From the NCBI RefSeq assembly GCF_004349055.1, contig NZ_SMKX01000031.1:1-64000 (forward strand): a DNA stretch of 64,000 bases. Direction: 5' to 3'. How positions within the stretch are numbered: position 1 is the stretch's first letter; the number at the start of each line of letters is the position of its first letter. The stretch is from Kribbella antibiotica (GTDB lineage: Bacteria > Actinomycetota > Actinomycetes > Propionibacteriales > Kribbellaceae). Below the pieces are notes generated by a model. It did not search any database and was not told the DNA's origin. It saw nothing but the letters and a program-made list of their open reading frames with translations. The position numbers and the translations under genes were made by a program. This document shows, piece after piece, positions 36,972 to 49,485 of the stretch.

Positions 36972-38006
36972 TTAGCGCTTCGGTGCGGGCCCGCTGCTGG
37001 CGCGGACCACCAGTTCTGTGGGCAGTAGCACCTGGCGCTCAGTCGTCGCGGGGTCGAGTAGGAGCCGGCCGAGCACTCGGCCCTTCTCCCCGATGGGCTG
37101 GTGGATGGTGGTCAGGCCGGCCTGTTCGGCGGCGGGGATGTCGTCGAAGCCGGTGACGGTCAGGTCCCGCCCGGGAACCAGTCCGCGCACCCGCATCGCC
37201 TCCATCGCACCAAGCGCCTGTACGTCGCTCAGTCCGACGATCGCGGTCGGCCGGTCCTGAGAGTCCAGCACCCAACTGGCTCCGGCCACTCCGGAGTTGA
37301 AGGCGTTGTGCCCACCGGACACCAGCCGGATGCGTGCCTCCGGCATCGCCTTCTGCAGACCCTCGAGTCGCTGGGTGGGGTTCCCGCTGAGGACCTCGTC
37401 GAGTCTCATCTCCACCGGACCGGTGCCGGCGGCCCCGGCGCCCTCGACCAGCACGACGATGTCGCGGTGACCGAGTCGGGTCAGGTGCTCGCCGAGGCTC
37501 ATGGCCGCGGCCACCTCGTCGATGGCGACCCAGCTGTCCGTGTAGTTGTCGGGGTCGGTGGCTGCGGCCGGGAGGCCACGTGCGGCCAGGATGTCCAGCG
37601 CTGGGTGACCGTAGGGCACGCAGAAGATCGCTGCGGCGTCGATAGCGGCCTGCTGAACCGCAGTGCTGCTGTCGGCGGTGTCCTCTGTTCCCACTGGCAT
37701 CAGGAGCAAGCTGGTGCGGAACTCTTCGGCCACCTCAGCCAGCCCGGCCAGGAAGCCCACGGCAAACGGATCTGAGAATGCGTAGGACAGCTTGTCGGTG
37801 AACAGCACCCCGATCGCCCCGGCCTTGCCGCTGCGCAGTGCCCGCGCGGACGCGTCCGGTCCGGCGTAACCGAGCTCGTGGGCGGCGGCCAGGATCCGGT
37901 CGCGCAGGGCAGTGGACAGCTGGTCGGGCTTGTTGTAGGCGTTGGATACCGTCGACGGCGAGACGCCCACGGCCTTGGCCACGGTCTTCAACGTCACTCC
38001 GGCCAT
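36972..38006 (-). CDS. LacI-family transcriptional regulator
   Basis: A 344-aa regulator: the N-terminal HTH (VTLKTVAKAVGVSPSTVSNAYNKP), the hinge (ALRSGKAGAIGVLF) and a periplasmic-binding-like ligand domain (about 60-335) ending with GFDDIPAAEQAGLTTIHQP. The ligand is probably a sugar or nucleoside but cannot be named. It diverges from cutC; the 113-nt region between holds a 48-bp palindrome that it probably binds, controlling itself and cutC. Confidence 0.94.
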   Translation of the reverse strand: MAGVTLKTVAKAVGVSPSTVSNAYNKPDQLSTALRDRILAAAHELGYAGPDASARALRSGKAGAIGVLFTDKLSYAFSDPFAVGFLAGLAEVAEEFRTSLLLMPVGTEDTADSSTAVQQAAIDAAAIFCVPYGHPALDILAARGLPAAATDPDNYTDSWVAIDEVAAAMSLGEHLTRLGHRDIVVLVEGAGAAGTGPVEMRLDEVLSGNPTQRLEGLQKAMPEARIRLVSGGHNAFNSGVAGASWVLDSQDRPTAIVGLSDVQALGAMEAMRVRGLVPGRDLTVTGFDDIPAAEQAGLTTIHQPIGEKGRVLGRLLLDPATTERQVLLPTELVVRASSGPAPKR

Positions 38007-38016
38007 CGCCGCACCG

Positions 38017-38064
38017 CCTTCTGTATCGTTCTTCTAAATCGATCTAGAAAAACGATACAGAAGG
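38017..38064. promoter_or_regulatory. 48-bp near-perfect palindrome between LacI gene and cutC
   Basis: The outer arms CCTTCTGTATCGTT (38017-38030) and AACGATACAGAAGG (38051-38064) pair perfectly over 14 bp. The inner part (38031-38050) is itself symmetric around ATCGAT (TTCTA and TAGAA arms), so 22 of 24 positions match. The core has the CG-centred form typical of LacI operators. It is 10 nt from the LacI start and 55 nt from cutC. Confidence 0.8.
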
Positions 38065-38119
38065 TCGTGGAGGAGTGCAACTGTCCAGCGTGCGGGATCC
38101 CGCCTGGGATGATGGGCGC

Positions 38120-38824
38120 ATGGCTTCGTTGCTGGAGGTGATTGCGCTGCATCCGGCGGATGCGGAGGCGGCGCAAGAGGGTGGGGCGGACCGGCTCGAG
38201 CTGTGTGCGTCGATGGAGGCCGACGGGCTGTCGCCGTCGGTGTCGACGGTCAGTGCGATCCGCCGGGCGACCGATCTGCCGTTGCGGGTGATGCTGCGGC
38301 TGTCCGACTCGTTCACCACCGACGGTGCCGAGCTGAACCGGATGACCGCGCAGGCGCAGGCCTACCTGTCCGCAGGTGCAGACGGGTTCGTCCTGGGCTT
38401 CCTGACCCCGGACAACGTGGTGGACGTCGAGTCGGTGGCCGCACTGGCCAGCACCTTCGCCGGTACGCCGTGGACGTTCCACCGCGCGATCGACGCCGTA
38501 CTGGAGCAGGCGGCCGCGTGGCGTGCGTTGCGTTCACTGTCCGGTCTGGACTGTGTGCTGACCGCAGGCTCGTCACTGGGCGTCGGCCACGGCCTGGACG
38601 ATCTCCTCAAGCTGGCCAAGGCGGATCCGGCCGTGGCGAGCGTGATGATGGCCGGTGGCTCGCTGAAGCCCGAGCATGTCCCGTGGCTCTACCAGGCCGG
38701 CGTACGGCGCTTCCACGTCGGCTCGTCGGTCCGCCAGGACGGCTCGTGGACCAAGGCCTATGTGAACTCGCGTTTCGTCCGTTCCTGGCGCAATCTGCTC
38801 GATGCGCAGGATTCCCGCGGATGA
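38120..38824 (+). CDS. cutC: CutC-family protein
   Basis: A 234-aa TIM-barrel protein. Family stretches are LEVIALHPADAEAAQEGGADRLELC at the start, GLSPSVSTVSAIRRAT, VLGFLTPDNVVD, PWTFHRAID, CVLTAGSSLG and the late MMAGGSLKPEHV. CutC was once linked to copper handling, but its true role is unsettled. ATG 38120 fits the family N-terminus; a GTG at 38075 is possible. Control by an adjacent LacI regulator suggests a sugar-related role rather than copper. The next gene overlaps by ATGA. Confidence 0.9.
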   Translation: MASLLEVIALHPADAEAAQEGGADRLELCASMEADGLSPSVSTVSAIRRATDLPLRVMLRLSDSFTTDGAELNRMTAQAQAYLSAGADGFVLGFLTPDNVVDVESVAALASTFAGTPWTFHRAIDAVLEQAAAWRALRSLSGLDCVLTAGSSLGVGHGLDDLLKLAKADPAVASVMMAGGSLKPEHVPWLYQAGVRRFHVGSSVRQDGSWTKAYVNSRFVRSWRNLLDAQDSRG

Positions 38825-39105
38825 TCCTCATCGACCCGCCCGCCTGGCCGGCCTGGAACCGCGTCTGGTCGCACCTCGTCAGTGACGAGTCGCACGACGA
38901 GCTGCACGCCTTCGCCAAGGCCGCCGGTATTCCTGCCCGCGGGTTCGACCGAGACCACTACGACGTACCCAGCGATCGGTACGACGATCTGGTCGCAGCC
39001 GGCGCCGTACCGGTGTCCAGTCGCGAGCTGGTCGCCCGCATCACCGCAGCCGGACTACGGCACCGCAAAAGTCACCGTAATGGGCAACAGCCCCCAACCG
39101 TGTGA
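38821..39105 (+). CDS. DUF4031-domain protein
   Basis: A 94-aa protein starting MILIDPPAWPAWNRVWSHLVSD, the DUF4031 signature, followed by ELHAFAKAAGIPARGFDRDHYDVPSDRYDDLVAAGA. Its ATG overlaps the cutC stop (38821-38824), so the two are translated together. Function unknown. Its stop codon lies within a strong hairpin terminator. Confidence 0.85.
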   Translation: MILIDPPAWPAWNRVWSHLVSDESHDELHAFAKAAGIPARGFDRDHYDVPSDRYDDLVAAGAVPVSSRELVARITAAGLRHRKSHRNGQQPPTV

Positions 39106-39121: not shown

Positions 39122-40309
39122 TCAGTCGAGTAGCTCGGTGACTGTGCCTGCGGCGACGGTGTGACCGCCTTCGCGGACTGCGAAGCCGAGGCCGACGTTC
39201 AGGGCGATCGGCTTCACCAGCTCCACGGCCAGGTCGACCGTGTCACCCGGCATGACCTGTGTGGTCGTGCCGAGGTCGATACCGCCGGACACGTCCGTGG
39301 TCCGGAAGTAGAACTGCGGGCGGTAGTCCGCGGCGAACGGCGTGTGCCGGCCACCCTCGGCGGTGGACAGTGCGTGCAGCGTGGCCCGGAACGCGCGGTG
39401 CGGACGCACCGTGCCGGGCACTGCGACCACCATGCCGCGACGAACCTCATCCCGCTTCACACCACGGAGCAGGATCGCTGCGTTGTCACCGGCCTGCACT
39501 GTCTCCAGCGTCTTGCCGAACGTCTCGATCCCGATCGCAGTGCTGCTGATGGTCTCGCCCAGACCGACCACGTCGACCGCTGCACCGACCTGAAGCGTGC
39601 CGCGCTCCACTGCACCGGTGACAACCGTGCCCCGGCCGCTGATCGTGAGCACACCCTCGATCGGCATCAGGAACGGCTCGGTCAGCTCCCGCTCCGGCGT
39701 CGGAACGTAGCTGTCGATCGCATCCAGCAGCTCACCGATCGCAGCGGTCCACTGTGGGTCGCCCTCCAGCGCCCCGAGGCCGGAGACACGCACCACCGGT
39801 ACGTCGTCGCCCGGGAAGCCGTACTCCGACAGGAGCTCACGGACCTCCAGTTCGACCAGGTCGAGCAGCTCGGGGTCGTCGACGGCGTCCGCCTTGTTCA
39901 GCGCGACCACCAGGTACGGCACACCGACGCGCTGCGCGAGCAACACGTGCTCCCGCGTCTGCGGCATCGCACCGTCCTGTGCGGACACGACCAGGATCGC
40001 GGCGTCCACCTGCGCGGCACCGGTGATCATGTTCTTCACGTAGTCGGCGTGCCCAGGCATGTCGACGTGCGCGTAGTGGCGGGACGCGGTCTCGTACTCC
40101 ACGTGCGAGATGTTGATGGTGATACCCCGCGCGACCTCCTCCGGCGCCCGGTCGATGCGAGCGAACGCAACGAACGAGTTGACGTCCGGGTCGCGCTCGG
40201 CGAGCACCTTGGTGATGGCAGCGGTCAGTGTGGTCTTGCCGTGGTCGACGTGCCCCATCGTCCCGATGTTGAGGTGCGGCTTGGACCGCACGAACTGGCT
40301 CTTGGCCAT
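39122..40309 (-). CDS. tuf: divergent elongation factor Tu (EF-Tu3-like)
   Basis: A 395-aa EF-Tu with all GTPase motifs: [41 protein letters not shown] and SGLGALEG. It departs from housekeeping EF-Tu: DMPGH replaces DCPGH, the 50-residue switch region is changed ([24 protein letters not shown]), and the end reads [20 protein letters not shown]. These traits fit the Streptomyces EF-Tu3 type, a low-expressed paralogue. The gene is alone, away from rpsL, rpsG and fusA. Start ATG 40309 ([14 protein letters not shown]). It may support translation under stress or against EF-Tu-targeting antibiotics; that is inference. Confidence 0.9.
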
Positions 40310-40429
40310 GAGTTTTCCCTTGCTGGTCAGAAGATTCACTGATGAGCCAGGACCCTCCGGCTGGCCGGCCGGCGCTGTCACCGCGCGGTCGGGGGCCGGT
40401 CTCGGGCCACCCTCCTCCGCGGGTCCTGA

Positions 40430-40583: not shown

Positions 40584-42965
40584 CTAGTTCAGGGCGAACA
40601 GGCGCGTGCCGTCGGAGAAGACCGGGCGCGCACCGGCCACTGTGGTGACCGGCTTGTTGCAGGTGACCTCTTCGGACCGGGCCACCGAGGCAGCGGTCGG
40701 GCCGTGCAGGATCGGCCGGGGCTGGATGCCTGCGGTGCCGATCATCACTGGTGAGCAGCTGCCGTTCGGCTGCGGCATCAGCGTGACCACTCGCCCGTCC
40801 GGCAGCAGTGCGAAGCCGTCCCGGGGGTACTCGGGCTGCTGCAGCTTCGGCGGCACCTGCAGCAGGTGGTGCCATTGCGGAGTGCCGTCAGCCGGGTTGG
40901 CCGCCGACACGTCGTACGCCTGCGGCTGTGCTGGGTCTGTCGTGTTCCGGCAGGTGATCAGCACGAGTGACGAGTGGGTTGCGGCGAGCTGTGCGTCGCA
41001 GGACGCCTGCCCGAGGCGCGGTCGCGGCGTGCCTGGTACGGGCGTGGTCCAGCTGATCCGGCGTTCGCCGACGTCGATCGACCACTGGTAGAGCGTTCCG
41101 CCGGCACCCGCGGTCCAGATCAGCCCGGAGACCTCACGGGTGTCCGGTACGGCGACCAGGTCACCGACCCAGGTCTCCGGATCCAGCTCGGGGCTCAGGT
41201 CGAACCGCTGCCCCAGGTCAACCGACCAGAGCTCGTTGCCGGACTTCAGGTCCAGGCCGCGCACGATAGCGCCGGTGCCTGCGCAGGCCTCGACGACGAC
41301 CGCTTGGTCGCTCATCAACTCGCCCTGCGTCACGTTGCAGCCCAACTGCGTCCGCCAGTGCGTCGGGTTACTCACGCCATGGGCAGCGACGTAGTTGCCC
41401 TCGGCGATCAGTAGTTGGTCCTGGTTGACCGCAAGCGCGCGACCGTCGGTGTGGACCTCGGTCAGCACCTCACCGGTCACTGCGTTCAGTACGGCGTACG
41501 TCGGCAGGTCGATACCGGTCGGTGCGCGATTTCCGGCGTACGGGAGGTTCGCGGCGACGATGCGGCCGTCACCGGAGACCAGTAGGCCCTTGGAGCCGCT
41601 GGAAGCCGCGTCGTTGACATCTGCGCGGGCATAGCGCCACCGGATCTGGCCGGAGTTCGCATCGGACATGACCACGCCGTCCGGTCGCAGCTCGGCCACG
41701 CCACCCGCCGTACCGGCGATCGCTCCGGATGCGGGAACTTCGCGCGTCCAGGCGAGGGTGCCGTCGAACTGCACCGGCACCTGAGTCGGTTCGGCCGTGG
41801 TCGTCGTACTGACGGTGTTGGCGGTCTCCAGCCGGGCCTGCACGAACGGCTCACCGGCAGATACCACAATCCCAGCGAGCAGGGCTCCGCAGACCGCTGT
41901 AGCGGCGACGCCCAGCCATGGCGGCGGAGCTTGCGAGTACGGCGGTGAGCGGCGGAGGCGCCGTGCCAACGCCAGCAGTCCGCCGGAGAGGATCAGTGCG
42001 ATCGACGCGAGCAGCAGGTAGGGCCAGCGCTCGGACATCGCCGCGCCAGGCTGTGCGGCCGGCCAGCGCCACCAGCAGATGCCGACCGCGACCACACCGA
42101 CCACTGCGAACACCAGGGCGGGGATGGCGAACAGTCGCTGCTTGACGCGTCGGAACCAGGCGCAGGCCAGTGCGGCAGCTATTGCGGTCCCGGCGACCGG
42201 AGTCCAGACCGGGAATCCGGTGACATCGGAGGGGTCGGCGGGCCACTTCGACGCGGCGCCAAGGCCGCGGCCGAGCAGCACTGAGGCGGCGACAACCGCA
42301 CCGAGGGAAGCACCGAAGTACACGACCGGGATCAGCCCGCCGATCGGTCGGGCCGCCTTAGGGCCCCAGGAATCGAGCTCCCGGTCGATATTGGAGCGCG
42401 CAGCGCGCTCCCAGCTGTCATGGCCCTGACTGGTCGCGTACAGGTCGGTCTCGGCCAGACCCTGCAGGAACGACATCCGGCCGCGGGCGAAGTCCCGGTC
42501 GTCGATGTGCGCGTACTCCTGGCGGATGCCGGCCGCGTACTCGTCGTACCGTTCGGCGGGCATGCTCAGGATGCGAAGGTCGGCGTCGCACAGCACTGAG
42601 CCGTTCGCGTCGTCGGGAGCACAGTCGTGTTTGGCGGTCAGCCGGACCAGGCGGCCGACCTCTTCGACCTTCGCGGCGTCGACGCCGTACGCGGCGAGCT
42701 CGAGCTCGGCCAGTTGGGCCGAGACCTCTTCGTTCTCGCCGGAGTCGGCCTGCGGGTCGTAGATCGCGTCGTGGAACCAGGCAGCCAGCCGGACAGTGTC
42801 CGCGTCGTCGGTGTGGGCGGAAAGCTCGTCCACCGTGCGCAGAACCTCGGTCAGGTGGCGCTGGTCGTGATAGTGCCGATGTTGCTCTGCGTAACGAGCC
42901 AGCAGATCATCGCCCAACGGCTGCGCGTGCGGCAGCAGGCGATTCCACTGGTCGCGCAGGTCCAT
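40584..42965 (-). CDS. HD-domain, membrane and PQQ-type beta-propeller fusion (intact HD)
   Basis: A 793-aa protein of three parts. Residues 1-195 are an HD phosphohydrolase of the COG4339 type: HYHDQRHL (His 33, 37), WFHDAIYD (His65, Asp66), GENEE and CDADLRIL, so the metal site looks complete. Residues 205-385 hold about five hydrophobic helices. Residues 400-793 form a PQQ-type beta-propeller with repeats such as IRWRYARADV, NELWSVDLG and the end RLFALN; it should lie outside. The start is ATG 42965 (MDLRDQWN); the frame is open upstream but lacks family features. The paralogue lies 214 nt upstream. Confidence 0.85.
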   Translation of the reverse strand: MDLRDQWNRLLPHAQPLGDDLLARYAEQHRHYHDQRHLTEVLRTVDELSAHTDDADTVRLAAWFHDAIYDPQADSGENEEVSAQLAELELAAYGVDAAKVEEVGRLVRLTAKHDCAPDDANGSVLCDADLRILSMPAERYDEYAAGIRQEYAHIDDRDFARGRMSFLQGLAETDLYATSQGHDSWERAARSNIDRELDSWGPKAARPIGGLIPVVYFGASLGAVVAASVLLGRGLGAASKWPADPSDVTGFPVWTPVAGTAIAAALACAWFRRVKQRLFAIPALVFAVVGVVAVGICWWRWPAAQPGAAMSERWPYLLLASIALILSGGLLALARRLRRSPPYSQAPPPWLGVAATAVCGALLAGIVVSAGEPFVQARLETANTVSTTTTAEPTQVPVQFDGTLAWTREVPASGAIAGTAGGVAELRPDGVVMSDANSGQIRWRYARADVNDAASSGSKGLLVSGDGRIVAANLPYAGNRAPTGIDLPTYAVLNAVTGEVLTEVHTDGRALAVNQDQLLIAEGNYVAAHGVSNPTHWRTQLGCNVTQGELMSDQAVVVEACAGTGAIVRGLDLKSGNELWSVDLGQRFDLSPELDPETWVGDLVAVPDTREVSGLIWTAGAGGTLYQWSIDVGERRISWTTPVPGTPRPRLGQASCDAQLAATHSSLVLITCRNTTDPAQPQAYDVSAANPADGTPQWHHLLQVPPKLQQPEYPRDGFALLPDGRVVTLMPQPNGSCSPVMIGTAGIQPRPILHGPTAASVARSEEVTCNKPVTTVAGARPVFSDGTRLFALN

Positions 42966-43087
42966 GGCTGCGAGTCTCGCACCCAGGACGAGTCCATCTC
43001 GACCGATCCTGGGCTCCCGGAGACGGTCGTGGCCAAAGCGATACCGGCTCGTCACCTCTCCGCTTCGAAGGGTGAGTCGAACACTTG

Positions 43088-43105
43088 AATTGCAGCGTTG
43101 CAATT
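43088..43105 (-). promoter_or_regulatory. inverted repeat upstream of the HD/propeller gene
   Basis: AATTGCA (43088-43094), GCGT, TGCAATT (43099-43105), a perfect 7-bp repeat in the 214-nt gap between the paralogues. On the minus strand TTGCAA followed after 17 nt by TCGACT could be a promoter. It lies about 125 nt before the start codon. Confidence 0.35.
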
Positions 43106-43179
43106 GCGCCGTGGGTCACAGTGCGCTCGTTCCGGGGCGAGCTGGCGGGCGAAACCTTTCAGTCGGTGACTACGCGCAG

Positions 43180-45438
43180 TTAGTTCAGCGCGATGACAGC
43201 GTTGTCCCCGTTCACCAGCACCTGATTACCGACCGCGTAGGCGTCGCGACTGCAGGTAATTCCGAGGGGTAGCCGAACCTGGCGGAATCCGGTCCGCTCG
43301 ATGATGTTGGCCCAGCAGGTGGCGGCATCCCGGCTGAGTGAGATCACCCGGCCGTCCGGGGTGACCGTGACCTTGGATCGCGGGTCGATGCGCGCCGTGA
43401 CCTGCCAGGCGGTCCGTCCGGTGGCCGTGTCGATCGCAGTCACGACGGTGCGCCGGTTCTGGATCGAGCTGGGGCCAGGGCAGTCCACCACGACCAGGTA
43501 GCGCCCAGCCGCGTTCAGAAGCGTCCGGCAGGCCCAGGTCTGCGGTACCGGCCAGCGCCACTTGATGGCGCCGGTCCGCGGTTCAATCGCGGCCAGAGCC
43601 ACCGGTACGTCGGAGTCGCCGCCCGGCTCGGCCAGCACGACCAGTCCGCCGGCGACGACCGGGCGCCGGTAGGTGTCGGTCGCAGTCTTGTTCCACAGCT
43701 CTTTGCCGGACTTCAGATCTAGTCCGACCACCGCGTCGGGCTCGTCACCGCAGTTGCCCAGGAACGCGACCACAGTGTCTGTGGAGGAGACCGCACTGAG
43801 GTCCGAGCACTCGCCTGGCGCGAAGGTCCACCTCTCGTGCCCGTCCGGGTCGAGGCCGTGCAGCTTGTCGGAACCACGCTTGGCCCGGTCGCCGGTCAGT
43901 AGCGGTTGTGCTTGCTGGATGAGGTGGTCGCGCATCCGGCCCGGCCAGGCGGCCTTGCGCTCACCTGTGTTGGCGTCGAGCAGTAGATAGCCGACGCCAG
44001 GAAACTGCCCGAGCACGTACTCGCCGTCGCCGGTCGCCGAGATGGTCGGGCGCTCGTTGGAGTCGGAGCGCGCGTAGCGCCAGCGCAGGTCACCGGTCGC
44101 AGCGTCGAGCATGTCGACTACGCCGTTCGGCCGGGGGATTGCGATGCCGTACTGCGTTGCGACCGCCTCCTCGGCTCCGGCGCCGAGCGTCGACCTGCTC
44201 ACCCAGGCGACCGTGCCGTTGAGGGCGGACGGCGTGGCCTTGCCAGCCGGGCGGGGTGACCGGTCGATCCGCTCATTCGTGCTCAGGACGTAGTTCCGGG
44301 CCAGAGGCTGAACGATCAGCAGTAATGCAAGAGCAACCACACCTGGTACGGCGAGCCAGGCCAGCTGCTGGCCGAGGTTCCGGCTCGGGAGGAAGCGGGC
44401 GGTTCGGGTATGCAGCAGGGATGCGGCGAGTGCTGCGCCACCTGCTATCAGCAGAAGGAGCAGTGCGGAGATCAGCAAGGGCACTCGGAGGCCGACACCG
44501 ACCGCTGGGTTGATGCGGGGAACTCGTGCCCAGGCGATCAGCAGTCCGGTGACAGCAAGCGCCACCACGGCACCTGCGATCAGACAGGCTCGTTGACTGG
44601 AGCTCCGTGCGCAACGGAACAACACTGGTGCGCCGAAGAACGCCAGTACGGCTAAGGCGACCGGTGGCCAACCAGCCTCGCTAGGTGCGGTCGGGATCTC
44701 CCAGGAGGCGCCAGCGGCGGCGATGGCAACGACAGCGGCGGCGATCGCGCAGAACGTTGCTGTTGCGGTCAGTGCGGCCTGCTGCCAACCACGCCAGGGT
44801 GCGGGGAGCTCGCTGTCGAGCCCAGCCAACTCTGTCTCGAGGTTGACCCGGGCAACCGGTCCGAGACGTTGCCGGGCCAGCTGAGTCCGGTAGAGGTGAC
44901 CGTCGAGCAGTTCGCGCACATCGTCGTACCGGCGTTCCAGTGTGCTTCGGCGTTCACCGGCGTCCCGGCGTACCTCGGCAACGTGCACGGCGTAGCGGAC
45001 TGGATCTGCCGAGAAGATGGCGTTCACTGCATCGAGCAGTACGTCGCCATTCGCGTCTCGGCGAGGTGGTGCGTAGGAATCGGCGGCTGGTGCGGCTAGT
45101 GCGCCGGTCAGGCGCACTAGGCGGGCGACTTCGGCGACCCGGATTGCCGCTATGCCGTACTGCGGAAGCATCTCCTCGGCCAGTTGGGCAGAGGCTTCGG
45201 CGTCCTCGGAGGGCGTGCCACCTGGCTCGTGGACGGCGCGGTGGAACCAGGCCGCCAGCCGGACCGACGCCGGGTCGGTCGACAGTTGGATCAGCGACTC
45301 CAGTGCGACCAGGACGATCTCGAGGTAATGGTCGCGGTAGGCGCGCCGGTTGCGCTCGACGTACTGAGTGATCAGCGCGTCGGCGAGTTCACCAGGACCA
45401 GGCACCAGGCCGTCCCAGCGCGCGCGTAGCTCGACCAC
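43180..45438 (-). CDS. HD-like, membrane and PQQ-type beta-propeller fusion (degenerate HD)
   Basis: A 752-aa paralogue with the same three parts. In the HD part the metal ligands are lost: RRAYRDHYLE replaces HYHDQRHL, WFHRAVHE replaces WFHDAIYD (Asp67 to Arg) and LLDAVNAIF replaces CDADLRIL, yet the surrounding helices are retained (SVRLAAWFH, AEASAQLAEEML). About five to six hydrophobic helices follow (about 215-390), then the propeller (about 400-752) with LRWRYARSDS, KELWNKT, IKWRWPVP and the end DNAVIALN. The GTG start at 45438 fits the paralogue N-terminus. It may form a regulatory partner of the intact copy. Confidence 0.83.
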   Translation of the reverse strand: MVELRARWDGLVPGPGELADALITQYVERNRRAYRDHYLEIVLVALESLIQLSTDPASVRLAAWFHRAVHEPGGTPSEDAEASAQLAEEMLPQYGIAAIRVAEVARLVRLTGALAAPAADSYAPPRRDANGDVLLDAVNAIFSADPVRYAVHVAEVRRDAGERRSTLERRYDDVRELLDGHLYRTQLARQRLGPVARVNLETELAGLDSELPAPWRGWQQAALTATATFCAIAAAVVAIAAAGASWEIPTAPSEAGWPPVALAVLAFFGAPVLFRCARSSSQRACLIAGAVVALAVTGLLIAWARVPRINPAVGVGLRVPLLISALLLLLIAGGAALAASLLHTRTARFLPSRNLGQQLAWLAVPGVVALALLLIVQPLARNYVLSTNERIDRSPRPAGKATPSALNGTVAWVSRSTLGAGAEEAVATQYGIAIPRPNGVVDMLDAATGDLRWRYARSDSNERPTISATGDGEYVLGQFPGVGYLLLDANTGERKAAWPGRMRDHLIQQAQPLLTGDRAKRGSDKLHGLDPDGHERWTFAPGECSDLSAVSSTDTVVAFLGNCGDEPDAVVGLDLKSGKELWNKTATDTYRRPVVAGGLVVLAEPGGDSDVPVALAAIEPRTGAIKWRWPVPQTWACRTLLNAAGRYLVVVDCPGPSSIQNRRTVVTAIDTATGRTAWQVTARIDPRSKVTVTPDGRVISLSRDAATCWANIIERTGFRQVRLPLGITCSRDAYAVGNQVLVNGDNAVIALN

Positions 45439-45460: not shown

Positions 45461-45781
45461 TTACTGGGCCGCGGACAGGACTCCCGTCAGCAAGCCCGGG
45501 TAGAGCGCGTCGAGGTCCTCGCGGCGCAAGCTACTGATCCGCCGCGTGCCCTCGGTGTGCGTGGTGAGGACGCCGGCCTCGCGCAGCGTGCGCAGGTGGT
45601 GGGCCCGGGTGGAGGGGGTGACCTGCAGCTCGATCTCGCCGCACGCAATGCCTTCCGGAGTGTCCGCGAGCGCTCGGACGATCTGTAGCCGGACCGGCTC
45701 GCCGAGGGCCTGCAGAACCGCCTCGACGCGGATCTCCGCCCGGTCGGGCTGGGGGAGCTGTTTCCTGATCATGAGTCCCAT
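45461..45781 (-). CDS. ArsR-family winged-helix regulator next to MFS gene
   Basis: A regulator of about 106 residues: IRVEAVLQALGEPVRLQIVRALADTPEGIACGEI, then the recognition region TPSTRAHHLRTLREAGVLTTHTEGTRR. ATG 45781 (MGLMIRK) and ATG 45772 (MIRKQ) are both possible, and neither has a clear ribosome binding site. It diverges from the MFS gene, with repeats between, and probably represses it. The lone Cys in IACGEI could sense redox state or ligand, but no metal site is clear. Confidence 0.9.
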   Translation of the reverse strand: MGLMIRKQLPQPDRAEIRVEAVLQALGEPVRLQIVRALADTPEGIACGEIELQVTPSTRAHHLRTLREAGVLTTHTEGTRRISSLRREDLDALYPGLLTGVLSAAQ

Positions 45782-47077: not shown

Positions 47078-48088
47078 ATGCGATTGCTGGCCGCGCTGAT
47101 GCTGCTGACCACCACGATGACCGGAGCGGCTGATCCCGCTCCGGTCATTGACGGGTGGAAGAACTCACCTGTGTACGTCGATCCGACGCAGCGTGCGCTG
47201 GTCCCGGAGCGGGACGCGGACGAGCTGAAGGACCGGATCGACGAGCGCGTTCCAGCTATCCGGATCGCCGTGGTGCCGGCTGCCGTGCTCAACAACGGTG
47301 GTGGCGACAACGGTGCGGCGGCCAAGGCTTATGTGGATGCACTGGTCGACAAGCAGGCTGCGGACGGCGTCTATCTGGTCGTGTTCGGCGGCGCGATGAT
47401 CTGGGGGAGCGCAGTCGGGGTCGACAGCCCGGTAGCGAAGATCCTGACGGAGGAGCTGGCCAGACACAGCCGGTCCGATCCAGTCGGCACGCTCAACGGA
47501 GTACTCGACCAACTCGACGTACCGAAGGCAGCCAGCGGTCCACCTGGCTGGATCTGGTTGGCGGGCTTCGCCCTGGTGCTGCTTGCTGGGCTCGGACTGG
47601 TCCGACGTTGGTGGAAGGCACGGCCGGCCAAGGAGGCCGGTCCGGCGCTCTACCGGCCGTCGTACGACGTATTGCCGGATGAGGCCGACACGCTGACCGA
47701 GCGGCAGCGGTTGGCCCGGGAAGACGTCACGCGGTTCGGTGAGGAACTGGATGCGGCGGACGTGCGTCTGGATGGCGTGGATAGCGCAGCGGACGTGCAA
47801 GCGGCACTGGATGCGTACGCCGATGCCGGGCGGGTGGTGAACGGTGATCTGGACGACGACGAGCTGCGCGATGTGCGTGCCCGCGTCGAGTACGGACGCT
47901 GGCGGCTGGCCTGTGCGCAGGCAAAGGTTGCGGGGACGGATGCACCGCCCCGCCGGGCGCTCTGCTTCTTCGACCCAGTGCATGGTGTCTCGGTGACCGA
48001 CTGGATGTTCACACCGGGCGGCGGTCAGTCGCGTGAGATCCCAGTCTGCAAGGCCTGCCAGGCCCGGCTCGCGCGGAGCGGGCGATGA
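47078..48088 (+). CDS. TPM-like membrane protein, paralogue 1
   Basis: A 336-aa protein: signal peptide (about 1-18, ending TGAADP), an exported TPM-like domain (about 25-150: SPVYVDPTQRALVPERDADEL, IRIAVVPAAVL, DGVYLVVFGG), one transmembrane helix (about 160-178) and a cytoplasmic helical part ending in a Cys motif (CFFDPVHG, then PVCKACQA). TPM domains occur in phosphatases and repair factors; this one is not clearly catalytic. It follows the MFS gene by 15 nt and overlaps the next gene by ATGA. It shares its architecture with paralogue 2. Confidence 0.75.
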   Translation: MRLLAALMLLTTTMTGAADPAPVIDGWKNSPVYVDPTQRALVPERDADELKDRIDERVPAIRIAVVPAAVLNNGGGDNGAAAKAYVDALVDKQAADGVYLVVFGGAMIWGSAVGVDSPVAKILTEELARHSRSDPVGTLNGVLDQLDVPKAASGPPGWIWLAGFALVLLAGLGLVRRWWKARPAKEAGPALYRPSYDVLPDEADTLTERQRLAREDVTRFGEELDAADVRLDGVDSAADVQAALDAYADAGRVVNGDLDDDELRDVRARVEYGRWRLACAQAKVAGTDAPPRRALCFFDPVHGVSVTDWMFTPGGGQSREIPVCKACQARLARSGR

Positions 48089-49485
48089 AGCGCCTGCTCG
48101 CAGTACTCGCCCTGGTTGTCCTCCCGGTGCTGCCGGCACAGGCCGCGACCACACCGGACGCCTACCTGAACGAAGTGGCCGGCCACCTTGGTGACCCTGG
48201 TGTGTGGGTCGATCCCGGCGTCAGCAAGCTCAGCTCCAGTGAGGTCGCGGAGCTGAACGCGGCAGCGAAGAGTGCGGCCTCGCCGATCCGGATCGCGGTT
48301 ATCCCGGCCGAGAAGCTCAAGAAGAGTCAGTACTCGCGCGTGCTTGCGTGGGAAGGCGAGGAGATCGCCGACCAGTTGTACGACCGTGTCGGCGTCGAAG
48401 GTGTGTACGCCGTCCTGGTCGATGCAAGCTCGGAGAGCAAGGGCCGCGGGTTCCATGCGGTCCAGCGCGCCGACCATGGTCCGACGTACCACGTGGGTGA
48501 TGCCGTGGACGAGGCTGTCGACTGCTGTGCGCCGGACTACGACCGCATGCTGGAGCGCTTCATCCAGCGTGCCCAGGTGATCGACAAGCCCTGGTACATC
48601 GACGTTGCGCCTTGGGCGGGTGGCGTTGCCGGGCTGTTCGGCCTGTGGTGGGGCGCAGTCACCTTCGGCGCACGCAGGGCGCGACGGCAGGACGAGAAGG
48701 CGCATCTGGCAGTCACGCAACCGATGCTCAACGAAGAGATCATTGCGCTGTCGCAGCAGGTGTCAGCGTTGCCGACGACGAATGAACCCCAGCAGGCGAA
48801 GCTCTCCAAGGATGTGCTCGACACAGTCGAGAAAGCACGGCACCGCTTGGATGCGGCCAAGGGAGACGCCGACATCGAGGCAGTGACGACGCTGCTGGGC
48901 TCTGCGCGCTACGGGCTGGTCTGTATCGACGCAGTGCGCGCCGGGCAGCCGATCCCGAAGCCGACAGCGCCCTGCTTCTTTGACCCACGGCACGGTCCCA
49001 GTGCGGCCAGGGTGGACTGGCAGCCGGAAGGTGGCAGCGTCCGCGAGGTGGATGTCTGTGCGGCCTGCAAGCGGCGGGATGAGGCTGGTGAGGAAGCGCA
49101 GATCCGAACGGTCACGTTGTGGCGGAATCCCAAGCCCTACTGGGAGTTCGGTGAGGAGATGGCCGCCTATATGGACGGCTACTGGTCGCAGGGTGACGGT
49201 AGGCGCTGGTGGTTCCCAGATGAGGAAGCCCGCCGGGCAGGCGACCGGATGCGCTCGCGCTGGGGTTCCCGCCGCGCAAGTGCCCGCTTCGGTCGCTGGA
49301 GCTCCGACGTCGGCTCGTCGGTCAGCAGTTGGTCGTCGTCCGGGTCATCGAATGACGATGATGACGGCGGTGGCTGGTCCAGCGGCGGCTCGTCACGCCG
49401 CCGCCACTCGTCCCGGACGAGGTCCAGCGGCGGCGGCTCCTCACGACGGTCGTCGCGCCGCTCAGGTGGCTCTCGCGGCTTCTAG
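48085..49485 (+). CDS. TPM-like membrane protein, paralogue 2, with Ser/Arg/Gly-rich tail
   Basis: A 466-aa protein: signal peptide (about 1-21, ending AQAATT), an exported TPM-like domain (about 30-165: VWVDPGVSKLSSSEVAEL, IRIAVIPAEKL, EGVYAVLVDAS), one helix near 175-195 and a cytoplasmic helical part with CFFDPRHG and VCAACKR, as in paralogue 1. The last 90 residues are low complexity (Ser, Gly, Arg, Asp), as in many TPM proteins. It is coupled to paralogue 1 by ATGA, and its stop shares CTAG (49482-49485) with the convergent PucR gene. Confidence 0.75.
   Translation: MKRLLAVLALVVLPVLPAQAATTPDAYLNEVAGHLGDPGVWVDPGVSKLSSSEVAELNAAAKSAASPIRIAVIPAEKLKKSQYSRVLAWEGEEIADQLYDRVGVEGVYAVLVDASSESKGRGFHAVQRADHGPTYHVGDAVDEAVDCCAPDYDRMLERFIQRAQVIDKPWYIDVAPWAGGVAGLFGLWWGAVTFGARRARRQDEKAHLAVTQPMLNEEIIALSQQVSALPTTNEPQQAKLSKDVLDTVEKARHRLDAAKGDADIEAVTTLLGSARYGLVCIDAVRAGQPIPKPTAPCFFDPRHGPSAARVDWQPEGGSVREVDVCAACKRRDEAGEEAQIRTVTLWRNPKPYWEFGEEMAAYMDGYWSQGDGRRWWFPDEEARRAGDRMRSRWGSRRASARFGRWSSDVGSSVSSWSSSGSSNDDDDGGGWSSGGSSRRRHSSRTRSSGGGSSRRSSRRSGGSRGF

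Follow-up and report, generated by a model that had tools for sequence, protein, structure and literature searches.

Several described systems share parts with the locus analysed here. In YpgQ, as given in passages of PMC8177086, the metal ligands are H29, H58, D59 and D124 and the phosphate is contacted by H25, while phosphohydrolases carry an arginine, typically three residues ahead of the first motif histidine, which sits by the substrate phosphate; the same passages describe RelA as being without hydrolysis, most likely via a divergent HD domain, and the HD domain of SpoT as active. The c-di-AMP phosphodiesterase PgpH (7TMR-HD) combines an extracellular domain, membrane helices and a cytosolic HD domain (in the passage cited from PMC12072042), and PknD (Mbk) has an N-terminal catalytic domain (a kinase), a membrane region and an outside C-terminal propeller (in the passages cited from PMC1262709 and PMC3601408). 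Kinases with PQQ repeats are named together with this comparison, in a passage that does not give their membrane placement (PMC1262709/PMC3601408).

We analysed a window of 64,000 nucleotides from Kribbella antibiotica, in which two neighbouring paralogues on the minus strand (A, the upstream copy, and B, the downstream copy) join an HD domain, a membrane block and a propeller in one chain. We found no description of an HD-plus-propeller membrane fusion with a dead twin in the open-licence PMC literature, and no paper on COG4339 in the same literature. The features are as follows.

40584..42965, minus strand: gene B, 793 aa, ATG at 42965, downstream copy; intact HD domain 1-200, five membrane helices 211-382, propeller ~400-793
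42366..42965, minus strand: HD domain of B, with Arg30, His33, His37, His65-Asp66, His113 and Asp129
40587..41786, minus strand: propeller of B, residues ~394-793, with Cys543, 561, 656, 672, 737 and 769
42966..43179: gap of 214 bases between A and B
43180..45438, minus strand: gene A, 752 aa, GTG start, upstream copy; pseudo-HD domain ~1-210, five membrane helices ~214-387, BamB/PQQ-type propeller ~400-752
44812..45438, minus strand: pseudo-HD domain of A; in the numbering of B it has Tyr33, Tyr37, His65, Arg66, Tyr113 (gapped stretch) and Val129, and retains Arg30, Arg148 and Arg163
38821..39105, plus strand: DUF4031 gene, 94 aa, downstream of B; a contextual partner outside the fusion

Domain order and predicted membrane topology of A and B

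The domain order that had been read from the DNA in both minus-strand frames (HD, membrane, propeller) was borne out by Pfam, hydropathy, AlphaFold models and propeller matches in the PDB. The long frame of B opens at 43103, and the start common to the aligned orthologues is the ATG at 42965. Pfam PQQ_2 was found in both proteins (32.2 bits in B and 57 bits in A, cut-off 27.6), and hydropathy gave five segments ahead of the propeller in A and in B, with a weak sixth within the propeller of B. Pfam HD was weak in B (17.7 bits with the long frame and 21.1 bits with the domain alone, cut-off 22) and gave no match in A, nor in any of 13 members of A and the third copies (C, below). The AlphaFold model of B has an all-helical N-terminal domain, and the confidence was low in the membrane and linker parts (pTM 0.48 and 0.49 for the B and A models). 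In the model of A, residues 1-210 fall in 10-residue blocks at pLDDT 64-94, with the helix order of B, and the HD domains of A and B align with 36.6% identity over 205 residues (E 6e-33). The HD fold of A, which the original prediction had said to be retained, is thus supported by the alignment to B and by a model with the same helix order, and not by any Pfam match; a profile of this domain reached PDB entry 2pq7 at E 0.25, a weak match ranked under designed proteins. By homology and modelling, A has the HD fold despite its dead site. Among the structure matches listed for the full-length models, propellers fill the list and no HD fold appears.

For both propellers, BamB was the top Foldseek match (E 1.4e-8 and 4e-14). 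VIA placed WD40 propellers (Z up to 21.5) above BamB (Z 17.5-18.8; rmsd 4.1-5.2 with about 300 residues aligned), and this ranking supports the propeller fold but not BamB in particular. A and B both combine PQQ_2 repeats with a propeller fold, the two characters of a BamB/PQQ-type propeller; judged from these matches, the fold is clear and the subclass less so. A PQQ-dependent dehydrogenase was rejected, with TIGR03075 giving A 23.8 bits against a cut-off of 480 and not listing B. BamB is part of an outer membrane machine, and the Foldseek result favours an explanation in which the propeller and membrane part is an envelope scaffold or assembly factor, the HD domain a housekeeping enzyme tethered by chance and the HD domain of A a passenger, which we regard as unlikely in the light of the constraint described below.

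Each propeller in the window holds six cysteines, the only ones there, and the two propellers are only 29% identical to each other. The six columns are invariant in a 25-row alignment of A, B and C, and the cysteines are kept in 37-38 of 38 B proteins and in 38 of 38 A proteins. The odd number of helices, together with the six propeller cysteines, fits an HD domain inside and a propeller outside, and on these grounds we infer that the HD domain is cytoplasmic and the propeller extracytoplasmic in A and B. The predicted loop charges support this topology in B and fit it poorly in A.

Catalytic site and constraint of the HD domains

The residue counts cover every A and B protein (38 of each) and the 16 C proteins with an HD domain. 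The downstream copy had been said to keep His33, His37, His65 and Asp66, which proved true in 38/38 Kribbella orthologues, as did the retention of His113, Asp127 and Asp129. When B was aligned with 23 stand-alone relatives (from 23 of 53 non-Kribbella loci, rows with internal stops and others being omitted), His33, His37, His65, Asp66, His113 and Asp129 were invariant and Asp127 nearly so. The upstream copy, in the numbering of B, has Tyr (37/38) or Phe (1/38) at position 33, Tyr37, Arg66 and Val129 in every genome, and Tyr (37/38) or Leu (1/38) at position 113, where the alignment stretch is gapped; His65 and Asp127 are retained in all 38. Of the four residues that A had been thought to have lost, His33, His37 and Asp66 are therefore gone but His65 is kept. 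Asp129 and His113 are two further losses in A that had not been noted before. The third copies carry Tyr33, Tyr37 and Arg66 (16/16) and Val129 (14/16), with Asp129 lost in all 16. Other positions are shared by the three groups: Arg30 is kept in 38/38 A and throughout A, B and C except for one gap in C; Trp63, Phe64, Ala67, Ser82 and Arg163 are kept throughout; and Arg148 is kept except in one A.

B has the H...HD...D metal motif on a helical fold, as expected of the HD superfamily, and A is without this active-site motif. His33, His37, His65, Asp66 and Asp129 of B match H25, H29, H58, D59 and D124 of YpgQ in their H-x3-H, HD and D spacing, and Arg30 lies three residues ahead of His33. We infer from this spacing that His37, His65, Asp66 and Asp129 are the metal ligands of B and that His33 contacts the phosphate; mapped in the same way, A and C are without three of the four metal ligands and the phosphate-contact histidine. 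In A and C, the arginine at position 66 would stand in for the metal.

A profile of the HD domain matched PDB structures 3dto (E 1.7e-5) and 2pq7 (E 2.3e-4), and a PDB search with the HD sequence of B alone gave no matches. Pfam HD matched 11 of 24 members (B and its 23 relatives) at E<=1, and PHROG 19425 (phosphohydrolase) matched B at E 1.1e-26 and gave no match to A. The stand-alone HD family is presumably of the COG4339 type, a label that comes from the first reading of the DNA. The site of B most resembles those of YpgQ-type nucleotide pyrophosphohydrolases, which points to nucleotides as the probable substrate class. An anti-phage defence protein was not indicated, with no PADLOC family at E<=0.1 for A, B or DUF4031.

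The HD superfamily also includes oxygenases and lyases (passages of PMC8177086), and B could accordingly act on a non-nucleotide, by oxygenase or lyase chemistry or on a sugar or lipid phosphoester. We hold this to be highly doubtful, since B has one histidine (His113) between the HD pair and the last aspartate rather than the two of the dinuclear motif, and since an arginine three residues ahead of the first histidine, as Arg30 is, is a phosphohydrolase trait (both as described in passages of PMC8177086).

For dN/dS, we used an NG86-type script on the window and 15 of the 20 named Kribbella loci (16 sequences and 120 pairs for each gene). The median dN/dS of the HD domain was 0.174 in A versus 0.270 in B, and the mean pN was 0.114 in A versus 0.098 in B. 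Because synonymous change is low in the HD domain of B, pN is the more reliable measure, and it shows A to be slightly less conserved. By these estimates, the HD domain of A is under purifying selection and about as constrained as that of B. This constraint speaks against A's domain being a mere passenger on an envelope scaffold, as a passenger should decay. The idea of an enzyme and pseudoenzyme pair came out well supported by sequence, with one intact copy and one dead neighbour in 38/38 genomes and the dead domain under purifying selection.

Distribution, ancestry and gene neighbourhood

Each of the 38 genomes in the family sample, which belong to a single genus (Kribbella), has both A and B. 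The two genes are neighbours on the same strand in the window and in 37/37 other Kribbella genomes, with B intact and A dead through nearly identical replacements in all 38. One of the 20 named Kribbella loci is labelled Streptomyces sp. SID13031, and in one locus (L068, genome G017) B is split into two frames. Matches were found in 279 of 391 genomes of the order sample (including the 38 Kribbella), 199 of 394 of the class sample and 85 of 396 of the phylum sample; Kribbella was represented in the class and phylum samples by the genome of the window alone. Among the matches listed in these three samples, full-length fusions occurred in Kribbella alone, in searches that scored two candidates per genome and could miss a diverged fusion. 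The other listed matches were to the HD domain (some extending beyond it across a stop), to propeller parts and to one stretch at the membrane-propeller border. Long frames around HD matches were rejected as further fusions at 15 loci, where the frame stops 3-25 aa past the HD domain, and so were 29 HD stretches, of which 24 end 1-31 aa past the match and 5 hold an internal stop. The HD domain stood alone in every non-Kribbella locus examined. On the full-length matches listed, the architecture does not look general in actinobacteria. The pairing of active and inactive copies, which the original prediction hoped to see surveyed across actinobacteria, held in 38/38 Kribbella genomes.

Third copies (C) were found at 17 Kribbella loci. 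Sixteen of them have an HD domain, dead in 16/16, including one copy cut short at 362 aa (L084, genome G010). The other (L085, genome G028) has the membrane and propeller parts in a 540 aa frame with no HD domain by tblastn or six-frame search, and stands outside the C count. Loss of the HD domain is thus possible (1/17 third copies). The dead third copies are located elsewhere than beside B, so dead copies need not adjoin B.

The HD tree held 72 rows (13 of 38 A, 13 of 38 B, 16 C and 30 stand-alone proteins). A and C form one clade (100/100), within which C is not one clade and to which a long branch (0.97) leads; A (98/99) and B (100/97) each form a clade, and the stand-alone proteins are set apart by a moderately supported branch (87/68). 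The single clade of A and C fits one loss of catalysis. A and B also have common invariant columns in their membrane and propeller parts, and the simplest account of these sequences would be one fusion, then a duplication, then a single catalytic loss.

The gap between A and B in the 37 other Kribbella genomes measures 172-214 bases in 12, 970-1093 bases in 22 and 2554-2567 bases in 3. In the three loci examined, a Gfo/Idh/MocA-like gene lies between A and B on the opposite strand.

L087 6946-7830, opposite strand to A and B: Gfo/Idh/MocA-like gene, assigned by Pfam in this locus only
L088 6960-7874, opposite strand to A and B: Gfo/Idh/MocA-like gene
L105 7017-7940, opposite strand to A and B: Gfo/Idh/MocA-like gene

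L088 has two more genes between A and B, and the 214-base gap of the window is too small for a Gfo/Idh-like gene. A conserved operon of A and B is ruled out, the genes being 0.97-2.6 kb apart in 25/38 genomes, and with this spacing the two genes often do not form a single transcription unit. In the window, a gene for an ArsR-type regulator (45461-45778, minus strand) ends 22 bases before A, and an MFS transporter gene diverges from it; in this strain, transcription of A may start at the promoter of this regulator.

These observations bear on a further explanation, that A and B are independent receptors, with the pseudo-HD domain of A and C serving as an output module that binds proteins or nucleotides rather than as a regulator of B. 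The C copies elsewhere in the genome, dead in all 16 that have an HD domain, the opposite-strand gene often found between A and B, and the low identity of the two window propellers, which makes different ligands likely, all argue for it. Against it stand the joint presence and adjacency of A and B in 38/38 genomes, which is weak evidence because the neighbouring genes are kept too, and the similar constraint on the two HD domains. We consider independent receptors somewhat unlikely, and continue to prefer A as a regulator of B.

Downstream of B, within 2 kb, EF-Tu and then the convergent DUF4031 gene were found in 20/20 named Kribbella loci; the EF-Tu of the window (39122-40381, minus strand) is a second one, 63% identical to another EF-Tu of the same genome. 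Outside Kribbella, 19/53 loci have DUF4031 no more than 3.2 kb from the HD domain, 10 of them at <=100 bases or with an overlap; no DUF4031 was found near the HD domain in the other 34/53, and 13/15 further loci had it. DUF4031 and HD are joined without a stop in six frames (L113, L120, L124, L168, L169 and L174), and the linkage recurs in many actinobacteria and also in one contig with the label Pseudomonadota, suggesting that DUF4031 and the stand-alone HD protein are functionally linked. A sister-family locus (L170) shows a corresponding order, running from a stand-alone HD gene through a GH20-like gene and a convergent DUF4031 gene to a CutC-like frame (GH20 and CutC by reading of the translations), and in the window a CutC gene (Pfam) adjoins DUF4031. 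By this matching order, B seems to occupy the position that the stand-alone HD gene has near DUF4031 and CutC, so the enzyme would predate the fusion, which also agrees with the HD domain being a tethered housekeeping enzyme. A frame at 37994-38482 (minus strand), considered as a neighbour marker, turned out to be the strand opposite the CutC gene. Elsewhere in the window, 47078-49485 (plus strand) holds two neighbouring genes with no Pfam match over cut-off, both with a CFFDPxHG motif; they give mutual weak partial matches (26-41%) and are probably paralogues.

Proposed mechanism and comparison with known systems

We tentatively propose that B is a membrane nucleotide phosphohydrolase coupled to a propeller, with A as its pseudoenzyme regulator. 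B would be a metal-dependent phosphohydrolase with its cytoplasmic HD domain joined by five helices to the outside propeller, one metal being held by His37, His65, Asp66 and Asp129 and the substrate phosphate being met by His33 and Arg30. A would be a pseudoenzyme paralogue with an arginine in place of the metal-binding aspartate and with the phosphate-contact Arg30 kept. At the level of a guess, A and B might pair in the membrane, the HD domain of A might be a regulatory or ligand-holding subunit, and the propellers might bind a cue or partner in the envelope or outside the cell and thereby adjust nucleotide hydrolysis by B. A more specific version, in which the HD pseudoenzyme A has become a nucleotide receptor, its Arg66 site holding a phosphorylated ligand uncut, so that A reads the ligand that B destroys and the outside propellers tune both, seems to us distinctly unlikely; if true, it would be a membrane enzyme/pseudoenzyme HD switch with a single origin in the Kribbella line.

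Compared with known proteins, the HD domain of B has 37-56% identity to the stand-alone HD phosphohydrolases (PHROG 19425); unlike B, these are about 200 aa long and often adjoin or are fused with DUF4031. An uncharacterised HD family is thereby tied to a likewise uncharacterised domain. YpgQ, 3dto and 2pq7 are like B in their H-x3-H/HD/D spacing (YpgQ) or profile match (3dto and 2pq7), but their sequence similarity to B is remote, and to our knowledge they have no membrane or propeller part. RelA and SpoT differ from A and B as synthetase-hydrolases of another architecture. In PgpH, unlike in B, the outside 7TMR-HDED precedes the membrane helices and HD domain, two metals are used and there is no propeller, and we know of no dead twin of PgpH; membership of the 7TMR-HD group is ruled out for A and B by their N-terminal HD domain and C-terminal propeller. 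PknD differs from B in having a Ser/Thr kinase in place of the HD domain and a six-bladed NHL propeller, and it spans the membrane once, compared with five times in A and B.

An outside propeller with an inside kinase, as in PknD, is thus known in actinobacteria, and here an HD hydrolase replaces the kinase, with a dead twin fixed beside the active copy in 38/38 genomes of one genus. The locus offers a clean natural case of the change from enzyme to putative regulatory pseudoenzyme, probably through one loss, with 38 genomes and a stand-alone relative in sister families available for comparison.
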